NCBI GenBank assembly: GCA_022769665.1
Contig: JALEIR010000014.1
Location: 1 to 64,000 of the forward strand
DNA from: Lachnospiraceae bacterium
GTDB lineage: Bacteria > Bacillota > Clostridia > Lachnospirales > Lachnospiraceae
DNA: 64,000 nt
Direction of reading: 5' to 3'
Shown piece by piece: positions 6,721 through 12,203 of this stretch (position 1 is its first letter; each line of letters opens with the position of its first letter). The notes below the pieces were generated by a model. That model was not told the DNA's origin and searched no databases. It saw nothing but the letters and a program-made list of their open reading frames with translations. The position numbers and the translations under genes were made by a program.

Positions 6721-7347
6721 ATGAGTAACTATCTTTTTATTTCAGATGCAGCTAAAGAAGTGAAGGTGGAAAGTCATGTGCTGAGATATTGGGAGGAAGA
6801 ATTGCATCTTCCTATCAAACGAAATGAATTGGGACATCGCTATTATACTGAAGAGGATATAGAACGTTTCAAGCAGATTAAAGGCATGAAAGAGAGGGGA
6901 CTGCAATTGAAAGCAATTAAAATGATTCTGAAAGACGGACGACTGGATGTGTTGCCACAGGAAACAGAGCAGGATAAAAAAATGACAGGAAATAAAGAAG
7001 AGAAAGGACAACCTGAAGGTGGACTTGCCATTGAAATTGTGAATAATCGGGAGAATATGGTATCTGCGGAATCCAAGGAGGACAAATCCAGAAAGCTTCA
7101 ATGGTTGCTTCAACAATTGATACGTGAAACAATACAGGAAAATAACAGCAGTCTGTGTAAGGAAATTAAGGAAAGCGTCGTAAAGGAATTGGATTATCAG
7201 TTCAGAATGCAGGAGGAGAGAGAGGAAGCCAGAGAAAGGAAAATGGAGCAGCGTGATGAAGAGTATTATAAAAGAATGGATGAACTCTTACGTAATAAGA
7301 GTAAAGTCAAACTGGGATTAGGTAAAAAAAGAAAAGGCACCCAATAG
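6721..7347 (+). CDS. MerR-type DNA-binding protein with C-terminal coiled coil
   Basis: A 208-residue protein with an N-terminal MerR-like winged helix (about 3-70: LFISDAAKEVKVESHVLRYW, then GHRYYTEEDIERFKQIKGM and ERGLQLKAIKMIL). The rest is a charged, Glu/Lys-rich region (about 85-205) likely to form a coiled coil; there is no cysteine cluster or drug-binding domain. This build resembles RacA-like or phage-type MerR relatives rather than metal sensors. AGAAAGGAG precedes the ATG. The function and targets are unknown; the position after dnaB gives no firm clue. Confidence 0.8.
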   Translation: MSNYLFISDAAKEVKVESHVLRYWEEELHLPIKRNELGHRYYTEEDIERFKQIKGMKERGLQLKAIKMILKDGRLDVLPQETEQDKKMTGNKEEKGQPEGGLAIEIVNNRENMVSAESKEDKSRKLQWLLQQLIRETIQENNSSLCKEIKESVVKELDYQFRMQEEREEARERKMEQRDEEYYKRMDELLRNKSKVKLGLGKKRKGTQ

Positions 7348-7355
7348 GGTGCCTT
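7334..7355. terminator. Bidirectional terminator between MerR gene and ferredoxin
   Basis: AAGGCACCC, loop AATA and GGGTGCCTT form a perfect 9-bp stem flanked by A-rich sequence upstream, so it can act for both convergent genes. The stop codon (TAG, 7345-7347) of the MerR-type gene lies across the loop and right arm. Confidence 0.75.
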
Positions 7356-7359
7356 CACT

Positions 7360-7530
7360 TTAAGCTTGCTCGATAGCGCCGGTAGGGCACTGACCTGCAC
7401 AGGAACCGCAGTCGATGCACTTCTCTGCATCAATTTCAAACTTGCCGTCTCCCATACTGATTGCACCAACGGGGCACTGAGCCTCGCAAGCACCACATGC
7501 TACACAAGCATCACCAATTGCATATGCCAT
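7360..7530 (-). CDS. 2[4Fe-4S] ferredoxin
   Basis: A 56-residue bacterial ferredoxin, a low-potential electron carrier. The start at MAYAIGD is fixed by AAGGAGG before the ATG; the longer frame to 7608 lacks one. Both cluster-binding motifs are complete: CVACGACEAQCP and CIDCGSCAGQCP, eight cysteines in all. It lies 87 bases downstream of pflA on the same strand, so it may support the radical-SAM activase or other pyruvate metabolism, but ferredoxins are general carriers. Confidence 0.96.
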   Translation of the reverse strand: MAYAIGDACVACGACEAQCPVGAISMGDGKFEIDAEKCIDCGSCAGQCPTGAIEQA

Positions 7531-7617
7531 AACTTTATCCTCCTTATTGTTTGATACAATTTTATCAATAACTGTACTTATTGTAATATAAATAGGTATT
7601 GAATACAAGTGTTAAAT

Positions 7618-8370
7618 TTATAATTCTGCCCGTCTCTTTTTAATTCCATCCAGAATTACCTGTTTTTTATCCAAGAGCTTATTCGGATCCATCGGCGGAA
7701 CTCCGTGAAGCTTATACTCCATACCGAGACTTTGATATTTTTTTTCTCCCATGGTATGGTAGGGAAGTACATCCAACGCTTTCAAATTGCTAAACTGTCC
7801 AATAAAGTATCCTAATTCAAACAGATATTTATCATCGTCTGTAATACCGGGAACAACTACATGGCGTATCCACATATCTACATGTTTCTCGTTAAGATAT
7901 GCAGCAAATTTTAGAATATTGGTATTTGGCTGCTGAGTCAGTTCCTTGTGTTTCTCAGGGTCGATATGTTTGATATCGAGCATAACGAGATCCGTAAGAC
8001 TCATGAGCTTGTCCATCTTCTCCATCTGGGTTGCACTGTCAGGATTGAAAGCAATGCCCGAAGAGTCGATGCAGGTATGAATATTACGTTCTTTTGCAAG
8101 AGTAAATAAATCAATTAAGAAGTCTATTTGCATCAATGGCTCTCCGCCGGTGACAGTAATACCGCCGCCGTTTTGGTAGAACGCACTGTTTCTTTCGTAT
8201 TGTTCAATAATATAGGAAGGCTCCATCAGTGTGCCACCGTTCATATCCCAGGTATCAGGATTGTGACAATATGCGCATCGCATGGGACAGCCTTGAACGA
8301 ACACTACAAAGCGCGTTCCCGGACCGTCAACCGTTCCAAAACTTTCCAAAGAATGAATTCTGCCTTGCAT
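7618..8370 (-). CDS. pflA: Pyruvate formate-lyase activating enzyme
   Basis: Radical-SAM enzyme that uses a [4Fe-4S] cluster and S-adenosylmethionine to abstract hydrogen from the active glycine of pyruvate formate-lyase. 250 residues, usual size. The cluster motif is CAYCHNPDTW preceded by GCPMR (CxxxCxxC), and VTGGEP lies in the SAM-binding region. Because the glycine here is on a separate 80-residue protein encoded just upstream, this activase presumably acts on that small protein docked to the PflB core. A hairpin terminator lies between the two genes, so pflA may be made at a lower level. The ribosome site (GAAAGGA) is somewhat distant. Confidence 0.95.
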   Translation of the reverse strand: MQGRIHSLESFGTVDGPGTRFVVFVQGCPMRCAYCHNPDTWDMNGGTLMEPSYIIEQYERNSAFYQNGGGITVTGGEPLMQIDFLIDLFTLAKERNIHTCIDSSGIAFNPDSATQMEKMDKLMSLTDLVMLDIKHIDPEKHKELTQQPNTNILKFAAYLNEKHVDMWIRHVVVPGITDDDKYLFELGYFIGQFSNLKALDVLPYHTMGEKKYQSLGMEYKLHGVPPMDPNKLLDKKQVILDGIKKRRAEL

Positions 8371-8394
8371 AAAGATTCAACGTCCTTTCTTGTT

Positions 8395-8427
8395 TTAAAA
8401 AGACCGGAAGGAATTACCTTCCGGTCT
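8395..8427 (-). terminator. Hairpin terminator between glycyl-radical domain gene and pflA
   Basis: AGACCGGAAGG / CCTTCCGGTCT, 11 bp with loop AATTA. On the minus strand it is followed by TTTTTAAAAC, a short T-run, so it would end or attenuate the pfl transcript before pflA. Confidence 0.7.
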
Positions 8428-8455
8428 TCTGATGTTTCTTCTGAACCGACCGCGA

Positions 8456-8698
8456 TTAAATTGCCTCGTGGAAAGTACGAGAGATAACGTCAGCCTGCTG
8501 TTCGGGAGTCAACTTGATAAAGTTAACTGCATATCCGGATACGCGGATGGTCAGCTGAGGATAATTCTCGGGATGCTGCTGAGCATCCAATAAGGTTTCT
8601 CTGTTCAGAACATTTACGTTCAAATGATGGCCACCCTTTGTTGCGTAACCATCCAATAAGTTTACAAGGTTATTCACCTGTGTTGCACTTGCTGCCAT
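8456..8698 (-). CDS. Stand-alone glycyl radical domain of pyruvate formate-lyase (GrcA-like)
   Basis: An 80-residue protein equal to the C-terminal domain of pyruvate formate-lyase. It contains [20 protein letters not shown] and the glycyl-radical loop RVSGYAV, with Gly55 as the expected radical site, and ends [11 protein letters not shown] as normal PFL does. AAGGAGG stands before its ATG, so it is an independent gene, not the product of a sequencing frameshift. The pflB gene upstream lacks this domain, so the protein is probably an essential part of a split enzyme rather than the repair spare part that E. coli GrcA/YfiD is. Order: pflB core, 67-residue protein, this gene, terminator, pflA. 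Confidence 0.93.
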
Positions 8699-8722
8699 GA
8701 TTTTTTCCTCCTTAATTATTTG

Positions 8723-8926
8723 TTATTGATAGTCATCTAAGCCTTGTTCCAAGGTGGGTACACTGCAGGCTAACGGAGTTCTGGAGCAGTCCGTACAGCC
8801 CATGGTCTGAACGTTCTTTGATTCTTGATTATCCTGATCGTAATCCACGTTTACATGGCCAACCCCGTCAGTCATGCCGGAATCCAGCATTTTTACAAGG
8901 TCATCAATCATTTTCTTTTCGTCCAT
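8723..8926 (-). CDS. 67-aa Cys-rich protein resembling a truncated glycyl-radical domain
   Basis: A small protein between the pflB core and the glycyl-radical domain gene, with its own CTGGAGG ribosome site. Residues ~7-30 (DDLVKMLDSGMTDGVGHVNV) match the opening of the neighbouring 80-residue protein ([20 protein letters not shown]), so the two look homologous, but the RVSGYAV loop is absent. Instead the C-terminal half has MGCTDCSRTPLACSVPTLEQG with three cysteines, which could bind metal or do thiol chemistry. I do not recognise a named family. Its place suggests a role in assembling, protecting or inactivating the split PFL; that is inference. Confidence 0.8.
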   Translation of the reverse strand: MDEKKMIDDLVKMLDSGMTDGVGHVNVDYDQDNQESKNVQTMGCTDCSRTPLACSVPTLEQGLDDYQ

Positions 8927-8950
8927 AGGGTACCTCCAGGATGTTTGTTT

Positions 8951-10990
8951 TTACTTATTCAAATCAAGTTCGATATCACCGGCAAATACCTTATCCTCTT
9001 TACCAAGAGCTCCGGGAATGATGGTGAAGGTATTGGAGATACCGTCCTGTGCATCATTGAAAGGAAGCTTGGATACGGAAGACAGGGATGCAACAGCACC
9101 ATGAGTATCACGGCCGTGCATAGGGTTAGCACCGGGTGCGAAAGGCTGTCCCTTCTTACGTCCATCAGGAGTATTACCTGTTGCCTTACCATAGGTAACG
9201 TTAGAGGTAATGGTCAGGATGGAGGTGGTAGGAATACCATTTCTGTAGGTGTGATGTCTTCTGACAGCGGTCATGAAGGTATGAACAACCCACTGAGCAA
9301 TCTCATCTACGCGGTCATCATCGTTACCGTACTTAGGGAAGTCACCGGTTGTCTTGAAGTCAACGATGATACCATCCTCATCACGGATAGGCTCAACCTT
9401 AGCGTACTTAATAGCGGAAAGAGAGTCAGCTACGATGGAAAGACCTGCAACACCTGTTGCAAAGTATCTCTTTACATCTCTGTCATGAAGAGCCATTTCT
9501 GCTCTCTCATAGCAGTACTTATCATGCATGTAGTGAATGATGTTCAGAGTATTTACATAAACATCAGCCTGCCACTCCAGCATATCAACGAACTTGCTTA
9601 CTACATCATCGTAATCAAGAACATCACCGGTTACAGGACGATACTTAGGACCTACCTGCTTCTTGGTAACTTCATCGATACCGCCGTTCAAAGCGTACAA
9701 CAGACATTTAGCTACGTTTGCACGTGCGCCGAAGAACTGCATTTCCTTACCGATTACCATGGAGGATACACAGCAAGCGATACCGTAGTCATCACCGTGA
9801 GTTACTCTCATAAGGTCATCGTTCTCATACTGGATAGAAGAGGTCTGGATGGAAGTCTTTGCACAGAACTTCTTCCAGCCTTCGGGAAGTCTGGTAGACC
9901 AAAGTACAGTCAGGTTGGGCTCGGGAGAAGGTCCAAGGTTGTACAGAGTGTTCAGGTAACGGAAGCTCATCTTTGTTACCATGTGACGTCCGTCAACACC
10001 AACACCACCCAGAGACTCGGTTACCCATACGGGGTCGCCGGCAAAAATCTGGTTGTACTCAGGGGTACGTGCAAACTTGACGCAACGCAGCTTCATGATG
10101 AAGTGATCAACAAACTCCTGAATCTGTTCCTCGGTGAAAGTACCGTTCTTTAAGTCTCTCTCAGCATAAATGTCAAGGAAGGTGGAAGTACGTCCAAGGG
10201 ACATAGCAGCACCGTTCTGCTCCTTAACGGAAGACAGATATCCGAAGTATACGGCCTGAATAGCTTCCTTAACGTTAGTTGCGGGATTAGAAATGTCACA
10301 GCCGTAAGAAGCAGCCATTTCCTTCATCATCTTCAGAGCGGTAATCTGCTCGGAAAGTTCCTCACGAAGACGGATAACGTCATCGGTCATAACACGTCCG
10401 GTAGAATCCTTCTGAGCCTGCTTGTCCTCAATCAGTCTGTCGATACCGTACAGAGCAACACGTCTGTAGTCGCCGATAATACGTCCACGTCCGTAAGCAT
10501 CGGGAAGACCGGTAATGATATGAGCGGAACGGCAAGCTCTCATCTCCTGATTGTAAGCATCGAAGCAACCTGCGTTGTGAGTCTTTCTGTGAGTGGAGAA
10601 AAACTCGGAAATCTCAGGGTCAACCTCATAGCCGTTATCTGCACAAGCCTTCTCTGCCATACGAATACCACCGTAAGGCTGAAGAGATCTCTTGAAAGGC
10701 TTGTCGGTCTGGAAACCTACGATGGTCTCCTTGCTCTTGTCAAGATATCCGGGGCCATGGGAAGTAATGGTAGAAACAACCTTGGTGTCCATATCAAGAA
10801 CGCCGCCTGCTTCTCTCTCTTTCTTCTGCAGGTCAAGTACCATTGCCCACAGGTCTTTTGTGTTCTGGGTAGGACCTGCCAGGAAAGACTCATCACCGTC
10901 ATAGGGATGATAGTTTCTCTGGATGAAGTCACGTACATTGACTTCTTTGTCCCATTTGCCACGTACGAAATCAGTTTCAATTGGTTTCAT
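8951..10990 (-). CDS. pflB: Pyruvate formate-lyase core, lacking the C-terminal glycyl radical domain
   Basis: Catalyses CoA-dependent cleavage of pyruvate to acetyl-CoA and formate in anaerobic fermentation. 679 residues against about 740-760 for full-length enzymes. The catalytic cysteine pair is present (ACC at about residues 405-407 in [10 protein letters not shown]), as are [10 protein letters not shown] and the conserved tail [16 protein letters not shown]. The frame stops after [20 protein letters not shown], where full-length enzymes continue into the glycine-bearing domain; here that domain is a separate gene 252 bases downstream. The ATG has AGGAGG upstream. Promoter and palindrome upstream suggest regulation in response to redox or carbon state. 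Confidence 0.95.
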
Positions 10991-11055
10991 TTTGAAATGC
11001 CTCCTATATAAATTTGATTAGAATAATAAAAATGTTACCGCTAATCTTTATGCTT

Positions 11056-11084
11056 ATTATAAGAAAAACAGTGCTTAGAGTCAA
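11056..11084 (-). promoter_or_regulatory. pflB promoter
   Basis: Minus-strand -35 TTGACT (11079-11084), 17-base spacer, -10 TATAAT (11056-11061), giving a predicted start near 11049 and a leader of about 60 bases. A perfect palindrome lies 25 bases upstream of the -35. Confidence 0.75.
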
Positions 11085-11108
11085 GGCGTGGAGAGGCACT
11101 TTGATGTA

Positions 11109-11128
11109 CTTTTTTGTATACAAAAAAG
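11109..11128. promoter_or_regulatory. Perfect 20-bp palindrome between divergent pflB and DUF1858 promoters
   Basis: CTTTTTTGTATACAAAAAAG is fully self-complementary. It lies upstream of the pflB -35 and six bases before the -35 of the divergent gene, a natural place for one dimeric regulator controlling both. It does not fit the known consensus of Rex, FNR or CcpA well, so the regulator is unknown. Confidence 0.6.
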
Positions 11129-11134
11129 AATAGC

Positions 11135-11163
11135 TTGTCAGAATTTTGGGAAAGTACTATACT
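11135..11163 (+). promoter_or_regulatory. Promoter of DUF1858 gene
   Basis: -35 TTGTCA (11135-11140), 17-base spacer, -10 TATACT (11158-11163). Predicted start near 11170, leaving a 35-base leader with GAAAGGAG before the ATG at 11205. Confidence 0.7.
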
Positions 11164-11204
11164 GATAGCAGGCATCTTCGGATGCAGGAAAGGAGAATAC
11201 AAAC

Positions 11205-11396
11205 ATGAGCGGTATTACAAAGGAAATGACTATCGGTGAGATTTTGCGGACAAATCCTGATGTGGCGCCTCTTTTGATGGAAGCCGGAATGCATTGCCTG
11301 GGCTGTCCTTCTGCACAGGGTGAATCCCTTGAAGAAGCTGCGATGGTACATGGTATTGATATTGATGCTTTGATGAAGGCCATCGAGGAGCTGTAA
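11205..11396 (+). CDS. DUF1858 domain protein (redox-disulfide domain)
   Basis: A 63-residue protein made of a single DUF1858 domain: [21 protein letters not shown] followed by [16 protein letters not shown] with a CxxC pair. The family is often found near hybrid-cluster proteins and is thought to take part in redox or sulfur/NO-related chemistry; the exact role is not settled. It is transcribed away from pflB across a shared palindrome, which suggests common anaerobic control. A strong terminator follows 12 bases after the stop, so it is a one-gene unit. Confidence 0.9.
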
Positions 11397-11408
11397 GCAT
11401 ATCATTAA

Positions 11409-11434
11409 AACCCGGCTGAAAAGCCGGGTTTTTT
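11409..11434 (+). terminator. Terminator after DUF1858 gene
   Basis: AACCCGGCT, loop GAAA, AGCCGGGTT and a run of six T: a textbook intrinsic terminator. Confidence 0.9.
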
Positions 11435-11474
11435 ATGGGTGCGTCCAACGGTATATATTTCAAACGAGCCGATA

Positions 11475-12203
11475 TCAGCCTGTCTGGGTATTGCCAAGAG
11501 AGTTCACAGCATTGCTGCGAATCAGTACTTCGCAATGCTCGTCGAGAAAACTGCTGCCGGAAGGCTGGCTGCGCTGTAGAGTACCGTATTCTGAGACAAT
11601 GTTGCAAATCCTGTCAAAATCTGTCCTGTTTTTGGCGGAGCCTGCAAGTAACAGGAAAAAATTACCTGTGGAGGCATCTTTGTACAAAGTACTTTCTCCT
11701 ACAAAGCGAGAAGAAATCAACTGACAGACATTCATAACCTGTTGGAGAGTACTCATGAGGAAAATCCGGGTAATGACTTCTCCTTCGGGAATATCGTTTT
11801 CTGTATGATCTGATGCAGCTTCAGACTTCTTGGCTTGAATCTGACGAAACAAGTCCATAACCTCACTGCCTTCGTGGTCACTGTACTCTTCGTCCCCGTC
11901 ATCTTCCTCTGTAACGGAGGGAGCAAATCTGGAAAAACGGGTGTCTAACTCCTCCGGGTCTTCCACCTTGGTGATAATCAGCACAATACATTCGGCGTTT
12001 AACGGAATAGCCTCAATCATCAGGGGAATATCCTCTGCCTCAAAACCAAATTCAAAGTTGGCCTGGCGCATCATGTCGCGGAACAGGGTTTTTGCCTTTT
12101 CCGTTCCGTAGGCAAGTTCGCTTATTTTCAGTTCGCGGCTTACTAAATCCTCGCGGGTCAGTGTGCAGCGGATTTGATTTTCATTTACTTTTTCTATTTT
12201 CAT
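11475..12203 (-). CDS. mecA: Adaptor protein MecA
   Basis: Adaptor that delivers substrates to the ClpC-ClpP protease. 242 residues from the ATG at 12203 (MKIEKVNENQIRCTLTREDL), chosen because GGAAGGG precedes it; the longer frame to 12269 has no site. The N-terminal substrate-binding domain (1-85) is typical, a variable acidic linker (about 100-150, many Glu/Asp) follows, and the C-terminal ClpC-binding domain ends near SGSSFLDEHCEVLI. No ClpC gene is visible nearby. Confidence 0.93.
   Translation of the reverse strand: MKIEKVNENQIRCTLTREDLVSRELKISELAYGTEKAKTLFRDMMRQANFEFGFEAEDIPLMIEAIPLNAECIVLIITKVEDPEELDTRFSRFAPSVTEEDDGDEEYSDHEGSEVMDLFRQIQAKKSEAASDHTENDIPEGEVITRIFLMSTLQQVMNVCQLISSRFVGESTLYKDASTGNFFLLLAGSAKNRTDFDRICNIVSEYGTLQRSQPSGSSFLDEHCEVLIRSNAVNSLGNTQTG

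Follow-up and report, generated by a model that had tools for sequence, protein, structure and literature searches.

How can a pyruvate formate-lyase (PFL) work when the domain that bears its radical is encoded by another gene? The question arises at positions 8456 to 10990 of the window, a stretch of 64,000 nucleotides from a Lachnospiraceae bacterium (GCA_022769665.1, contig JALEIR010000014.1, positions 1 to 64,000). PFL is a central fermentation enzyme and the textbook example of an oxygen-sensitive radical enzyme. Here it is divided between a core gene and a gene for a stand-alone glycyl-radical domain (GRD), and between the two lies a third small gene, MID, which the original prediction missed. 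The best overall explanation, with a probability of roughly 60%, would be a multi-part PFL that combines a swappable GRD with a cysteine element, supplied either in cis by a tail on the core or in trans by MID. The components are as follows.

8951-10990, minus strand: pflB, core of the split PFL, 679 residues without the radical domain (TIGR01255 and PF02901)
Codons 9773-9775 and 9770-9772, minus strand: C406 and C407, catalytic vicinal pair of the core, invariant in aligned cores
8723-8926, minus strand: MID, the third component, 67 residues, with C-terminal cysteines C44, C47 and C54 in GCTDCSRTPLACSVPTL and no radical glycine loop
8456-8698, minus strand: stand-alone GRD, GrcA3-like, 80 residues (NF038360 and PF01228)
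Codon 8534-8536, minus strand: G55, the radical glycine of RVSGYAV in the GRD
7618-8370, minus strand: pflA, radical-SAM activating enzyme, 250 residues (TIGR02493, 294.3 bits, cut-off 231.75)

A pyruvate formate-lyase in separate genes

The original prediction held that pflB ends at 679 residues without the RVSGYAV loop, that an 80-residue reading frame downstream is the missing domain, and that separate ribosome sites speak against a simple frameshift. Each of these points is borne out. Its further proposal, that the small subunit would serve in every catalytic cycle and might be swapped after oxygen damage, is a conjecture. The core matches the formate C-acetyltransferase model TIGR01255 from position 5 to 665 of 744 (1088.3 bits, cut-off 994.2) as well as PF02901 (E 6e-219), and so departs from a PFL that holds its radical domain in the same polypeptide. 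The GRD matches TIGR01255 from 665 to 743 and PF01228 (E 1.5e-23), and it holds both LNVNVLNRE and RVSGYAV. Because the two TIGR01255 matches abut, core and GRD jointly cover one PFL. Within the GrcA families, the GRD scores barely over the cut-off for GrcA3 (NF038360, 159.2 bits, cut-off 158) and under that for GrcA (TIGR04365, 100.5 bits, cut-off 170). The ribosome sites, read by eye, are AGGAGG for the core, GGAGG for MID and AAGGAGG for the GRD. A frameshift or assembly error is ruled out by relatives, in which all 55 complete cores extracted have 678 or 679 residues, and by low dN/dS. Median values against the window are 0.039 (core, 7 loci), 0.047 (MID, 14 loci, with synonymous sites saturated in six of the 14 pairs) and 0.055 (GRD, 14 loci). 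C406 and C407 are invariant in 44 aligned cores, and likewise in a set of 57 split and 26 full-length cores.

No hidden full-length PFL was found: the window core is the sole PF02901 match in a genome that is 98.09% complete. GrcA-type repair of a full-length PFL in the same cell would thus find no such enzyme among the sequences of this genome. PF01228 is also matched by two NrdD-like proteins, class III ribonucleotide reductases (C58 and C66, named from sequence and not by family search), and by another stand-alone GRD, which lies on contig C22 (5450-5735, L189), unlinked to the operon. This GRD and the one in the window share 76.7% of their DNA positions, and dS between them is about 1.7. 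The C22 copy, which adjoins a gene that we take to resemble spoIIIAA, is an old paralogue that has been retained, and it might serve the split PFL as a true spare part. Since no full-length PFL was found, the radical must come from the 80-residue GRD or from the C22 paralogue, if the core works. A pyruvate:ferredoxin oxidoreductase is encoded in the same genome, so part of the pyruvate flux could bypass PFL.

The split extends well beyond this genome. In a family sample of 150 genomes, 130 match TIGR01255 and 112 do so over the cut-off. Counted by hand, these 112 comprise 59 genomes with a full-length PFL (match to 742-744) and 56 with a split one (match ending at 663-704), while three (G085, G119 and G132) hold both. 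A class sample of 291 genomes contains stand-alone GRDs in at least 18 genomes, at least 13 of them outside the family; in each of 13 out-of-family genomes the fetched locus has a core ending before the GRD.

A maximum-likelihood tree was built from 87 cores, namely 57 of 76 split cores and 30 full-length ones; ten fetched full-length rows in which the motif was not found were left out, and the bootstrap had not settled. All 57 split cores share one clade with four full-length PFLs, of which G657 branches at the base or close to it and G096, G011 and G108 are nested. Monophyly of the 57 split cores is rejected (p-AU 0.009, in a test that assumes a group named beforehand). Changes between the full-length and split states number four on the 87-row tree and three on a mixture-model tree; smaller trees of 68 and 70 rows, superseded by the 87-row tree, give three each. 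The three changes on the mixture-model tree could be accounted for by a single split followed by two re-fusions. Four core residues flanking the active-site pair, C429, H398, S410 and E416, are characteristic of most of the split clade, and its re-fused members have kept them.

MID and the cysteine element in cis or trans

MID is a conserved relative of the first half of the GRD. Its residues 2-33 align with GRD residues 3-34, a helix and a strand (hhalign E 6.2e-9, probability 95.9), and a MID profile recovers the same stretch in full-length PFLs and in stand-alone GRDs of other genomes. After the strand MID lacks the radical loop and has a C-terminal cysteine pair in its place. Neither the window MID nor the consensus of an alignment of 70 MIDs contains RVSGYAV. 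With neither a PF01228 match nor the loop, MID falls outside the glycyl-radical domain family, and only its residues 2-33 align. Searches with MID gave no Pfam match at E 10, a faint one to GrcA3 (E 0.04) and no credible match in the PDB.

The family is conserved, which rules out a chance reading frame. An alignment of 32 diverse sequences (A1), which omits the MIDs missed by the sequence pattern and the shortened ones of G012 and G026, shows D15, G21, G23, A53, C54 and P57 to be invariant; C47, D46, T58 and L59 are among the residues kept in at least 90% of sequences. The typical end reads DC-x(5)-AC-x-[VI]-PTL-x2-G-x-D. Purifying selection on MID looks as strong as that on the core.

A scan of named genomes gave 531 MID relatives among 579 candidate stretches, of which relatives the best 80 were kept as the set of loci for counts of cores, hairpins and gene order. 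These 80 are mostly from Acetatifactor and Lachnospiraceae, and include Kineothrix alysoides. In all 80 the core lies upstream and the GRD downstream; the sequence pattern matched MID in 72, and the other eight hold the scan's MID match. pflA follows downstream in 65 of the 80, several loci ending early. Full MIDs occur in 9 of the 291 genomes of the class sample, all with a stand-alone GRD, and in a phylum sample of 398 genomes only in the window genome and in G371, of the same family. Some loci depart from the usual form: two MID genes (L061 of G012 and L062 of G026) end right after C-x2-C without the usual AC-x-VPTL, and in L174 (G684) MID is placed after the GRD. A phage-borne MID was also considered. 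The one match on a viral contig (L077) lies inside a transglycosylase-like reading frame on a phage contig and was judged to be chance.

Most split cores without MID end in a cysteine-bearing tail whose motif is similar, such as IEECGNQACNIPNIMESIDNE or DCASGACISPTLLQGLDTD. In total 76 split cores were fetched, 60 from the family, four broken over contigs counted, and 16 more from the class sample; every one has a separate GRD. MID is present in the locus of 44, none of which has a tail cysteine. Another 27 lack MID but carry two or more cysteines in a tail, and five have neither element nearby; the two never occur together. Among these five, G002 has a MID on another contig, and G130, G687 (a genome 82% complete), G786 and G724 have none. 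Sampling was partly by way of MID, which cannot produce the zero double cases but does shift the proportions. The exclusion of cis by trans gives a Fisher p of 7e-16 on rows, but the rows are related. The best core tree requires at least eight changes between cis and trans, and its well-supported branches alone force four gains or losses of the tail and five of MID. In the locus of G130 (L058) the order is core, pflA, GRD, with neither MID nor cysteine tail.

At least two cysteines stand near the C-terminus in 27 of 27 tails, which are defined by having them, and in 46 of 46 MIDs. What the cis tails, as read, share with MID is the cysteine pair and not the GRD-like half. Spacing ranges from CC to C-x6-C in tails and up to C-x9-C in MIDs, 40 of the 46 MIDs having C-x6-C. 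Seven of the 27 tails contain C-x2-G-A-C, also found at the end of Escherichia coli NrdA (...DDGCESGACKI). Linkers were read in 30 full-length PFLs: a cysteine cluster occurs just in the re-fused G096, the re-fused G011 and G108 are without it, and the other 27 have at most one cysteine. Though few events underlie it, this pattern suggests that the cysteine element is important as long as the GRD is a protein of its own. The PFL of G096 (L242), re-fused and nested among split cores, carries its cluster, CGCEEVTC, between core and GRD.

How the parts might work together

Known enzymes offer points of comparison for each part. The split PFL resembles PflB (TIGR01255) in its core sequence, its vicinal catalytic cysteines and its pflA neighbour, and differs in having the radical domain on another polypeptide and an extra cysteine element. 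The GRD resembles YfiD/GrcA, T4 Y06I and GrcA3 (NF038360), small radical-loop proteins that complete a PFL without its loop, although it has 80 residues where E. coli YfiD has 127. YfiD is described as serving oxygen-cleaved full-length PFL (PMC8683613), whereas no full-length PFL was found in the window genome. The same source reports that cleaved E. coli PFL (residues 1-733) accepts YfiD, while a core cut at 695 shows undetectable YfiD binding and 32-fold less radical, yet is fully active once activated; its authors attribute the defect to the absence of residues 696-733, which they regard as a recognition element (PMC8683613). Natural split cores stop in about the same place, and the first half of MID overlaps 696-733 by homology. 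A docking role for MID is a natural guess, because its first half is homologous to part of that recognition element.

The cysteine pair has a counterpart in ribonucleotide reductases. In the class of E. coli NrdA, a C-terminal cysteine pair is described as re-reducing the active-site cysteines (PMC5704485), and in the class II enzyme of Pseudomonas aeruginosa that function is reported on a separate subunit, NrdJb (PMC4520616). NrdJa/NrdJb and the split PFL would thus be alike in having a small separate cysteine-bearing part with relatives in cis (PMC4520616; PMC5704485). Dithiol exchange is reported for the former and proposed for MID, a likeness drawn by description rather than by comparison of the NrdJb and MID sequences.

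Taken together, core, MID and GRD would be parts of one enzyme, whose core has the vicinal cysteines and could not work alone. PflA would activate the 80-residue GRD, which would place its radical glycine beside the core cysteines as an exchangeable part. MID would dock on the core by mimicking the start of the GRD, a helix and a barrel strand, and present its C-terminal cysteine pair. The cysteine element might hold or guide the GRD site. It might also be a dithiol shuttle that keeps the exposed active-site cysteines C406 and C407 reduced, or returns them to that state, when the GRD is out. We infer assembly, exchange, docking and redox role from sequence, and in our view it is the coming and going of the GRD that would call for such an element. 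That this is a working PFL whose GRD is obligately separate is very probable, and that MID acts on the core, either at the GRD site or close by, is fairly probable. Dithiol exchange as the chemistry of MID, an idea taken from the reductases, is less likely than not. A further extension is doubtful: a three-part enzyme built for repair, in which a GRD-derived protein supplies the dithiol shuttle in trans when the radical part is absent or oxygen-damaged, the shuttle moving between core and separate protein in convergence with ribonucleotide reductases, both cis and split. More boldly, one site of a PFL dimer might hold the GRD and the other MID, which would give half-site behaviour a structural basis.

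Several results weigh against the multi-part PFL with its cysteine element. Four split cores have neither MID nor tail, so the element is not indispensable. There are just five well-supported independent pairs; on average cis and trans move in opposite directions in 3.6 of them, and in no pair do they move together, which is not significant (sign test p 0.125). Only five changes tie the cysteine element to the split state, and here the independent pairs are uninformative (p 1). Given the varied spacing of the cysteines, the likeness to NrdA may be chance. The AlphaFold model of the core is poor (mean pLDDT 45.7), built on a shallow alignment of 44 sequences with a mean column identity of 95%. 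E. coli PFL heads the Foldseek matches of this poor model (E 8e-36; TM 0.41-0.49 over the four leading matches), a result given no weight here.

Other explanations account for part of the same evidence. The homology of MID to the GRD helix and strand would also suit a placeholder or docking piece, MID or tail, that fills and protects the empty GRD groove and recruits GRD and PflA, its cysteines being structural; the poor binding of YfiD by truncated E. coli PFL without this region (PMC8683613) points the same way. This is somewhat unlikely, for the cis tails, as read, keep just the cysteine part without the GRD-like half, leaving the cysteine pair as the common element. Half a GRD could instead be a decaying duplicate without a role, and both the four split lineages that lack MID and the shortened copies in G012 and G026 would fit such decay. 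A median dN/dS of about 0.05 (6 of 14 pairs saturated), a conserved cysteine motif and gene position, and the cysteine-pair tails of 27 of the 32 cores without MID in the locus make this very unlikely.

A cysteine element that binds a metal or an Fe-S cluster and regulates radical transfer is improbable, though it has a precedent: the accessory subunits of benzylsuccinate synthase, described as small, carry [4Fe-4S] and regulate another glycyl radical enzyme (PMC12590467). MID, in contrast, has a GRD-like first half and two nearly invariant cysteines, a third being found in part of the family. A [4Fe-4S] cluster takes four ligands, which MID would fall short of supplying, although ligands could come from elsewhere. 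The element often has just two cysteines with varied spacing, and no Cys or His column of the core was found to track the split state. A split-specific metal site in the core was rejected, C429 and the other columns being lineage markers; C429 is kept in three nested re-fused PFLs. Last, the pyruvate:ferredoxin oxidoreductase would allow for a core that is not a working PFL and a GRD that is a spare part for something else. Strong purifying selection, invariant catalytic cysteines, pflA downstream in 65 of 80 loci and the absence of any other PF02901 protein from the genome leave this scarcely credible. Preference stays with the multi-part PFL, as graded at the outset.

Surroundings, earlier records and meaning

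On the minus strand the gene order is core, MID, GRD, pflA and ferredoxin. The remaining features of the locus are these.

7360-7530, minus strand: small ferredoxin with two 4Fe-4S motifs, 56 residues (NF058577, 87.4 bits, cut-off 65; scored on the frame taken from 7536, the start in 7360-7530 being set with the ribosome site)
8400-8428, minus strand: terminator-like hairpin between GRD and pflA, a 12-bp stem running into TTTTT on the minus strand
11056-11084, minus strand: promoter-like site TTGACT-17-TATAAT preceding the core, in agreement with the consensus at 11 of 12 positions

The ferredoxin is a possible electron donor to PflA. The promoter scan found 7 sites in total against 7.7 in shuffles, and since this is no higher, the site at 11056-11084 is credited for its position and not for number. 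The hairpin was listed for the plus strand by a scan that found 3 sites against 3.4 in shuffles. A terminator-like hairpin stands 3' of the GRD in 52 of 79 relatives and in one shuffled control, and 3' of the core in none of 80. Because such a hairpin follows the GRD and never the core, core, MID and GRD look like one transcription unit.

Upstream of the core lies a divergent reading frame of 63 residues (11205-11396, plus strand), presumably a DUF1858-type small cysteine protein, and the palindrome TTTTTTGTATACAAAAAA (11110-11127) stands between them. The sequence TTGTATACAA was rejected as a regulatory palindrome upstream of the core, as it recurs in just 4 of 47 relatives. An Rfam scan of 7000-12000 gave no match at the gathering threshold, and an RNA element was dropped. 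In a phage collection, 790 phage records match 8456-10990 at 60-80% identity; among the four that cover at least 80% of it are two unannotated human faecal records and two of Staphylococcus phages.

By sequence the core is matched best by PDB entries 38la and 38lb, annotated as formate acetyltransferase, and both are absent among the GRD matches listed; 38lb, read without its last 36 residues, continues past the core end with C-x2-C. Neither is among the 50 Foldseek matches listed (structures to 2026-04-08). These entries suggest that others are studying GRD-less PFLs. GrcA3 is already a known family at NCBI. Among the open-access papers listed, subscription papers being outside this scope, none deals with a natural split PFL, judging by title and abstract. 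Nothing was found in these sources on MID or on a cis/trans cysteine element, which is weak evidence.

The MID family provides a testable entry to the docking of the radical part and the protection of active-site thiols. It also bears on why truncated E. coli PFL accepts YfiD so poorly, a question arising from the 2021 work (PMC8683613). If the natural split is common, as 56 of 112 genomes in the family sample would indicate, many anaerobes would normally bear their radical on a cheap, exchangeable piece.

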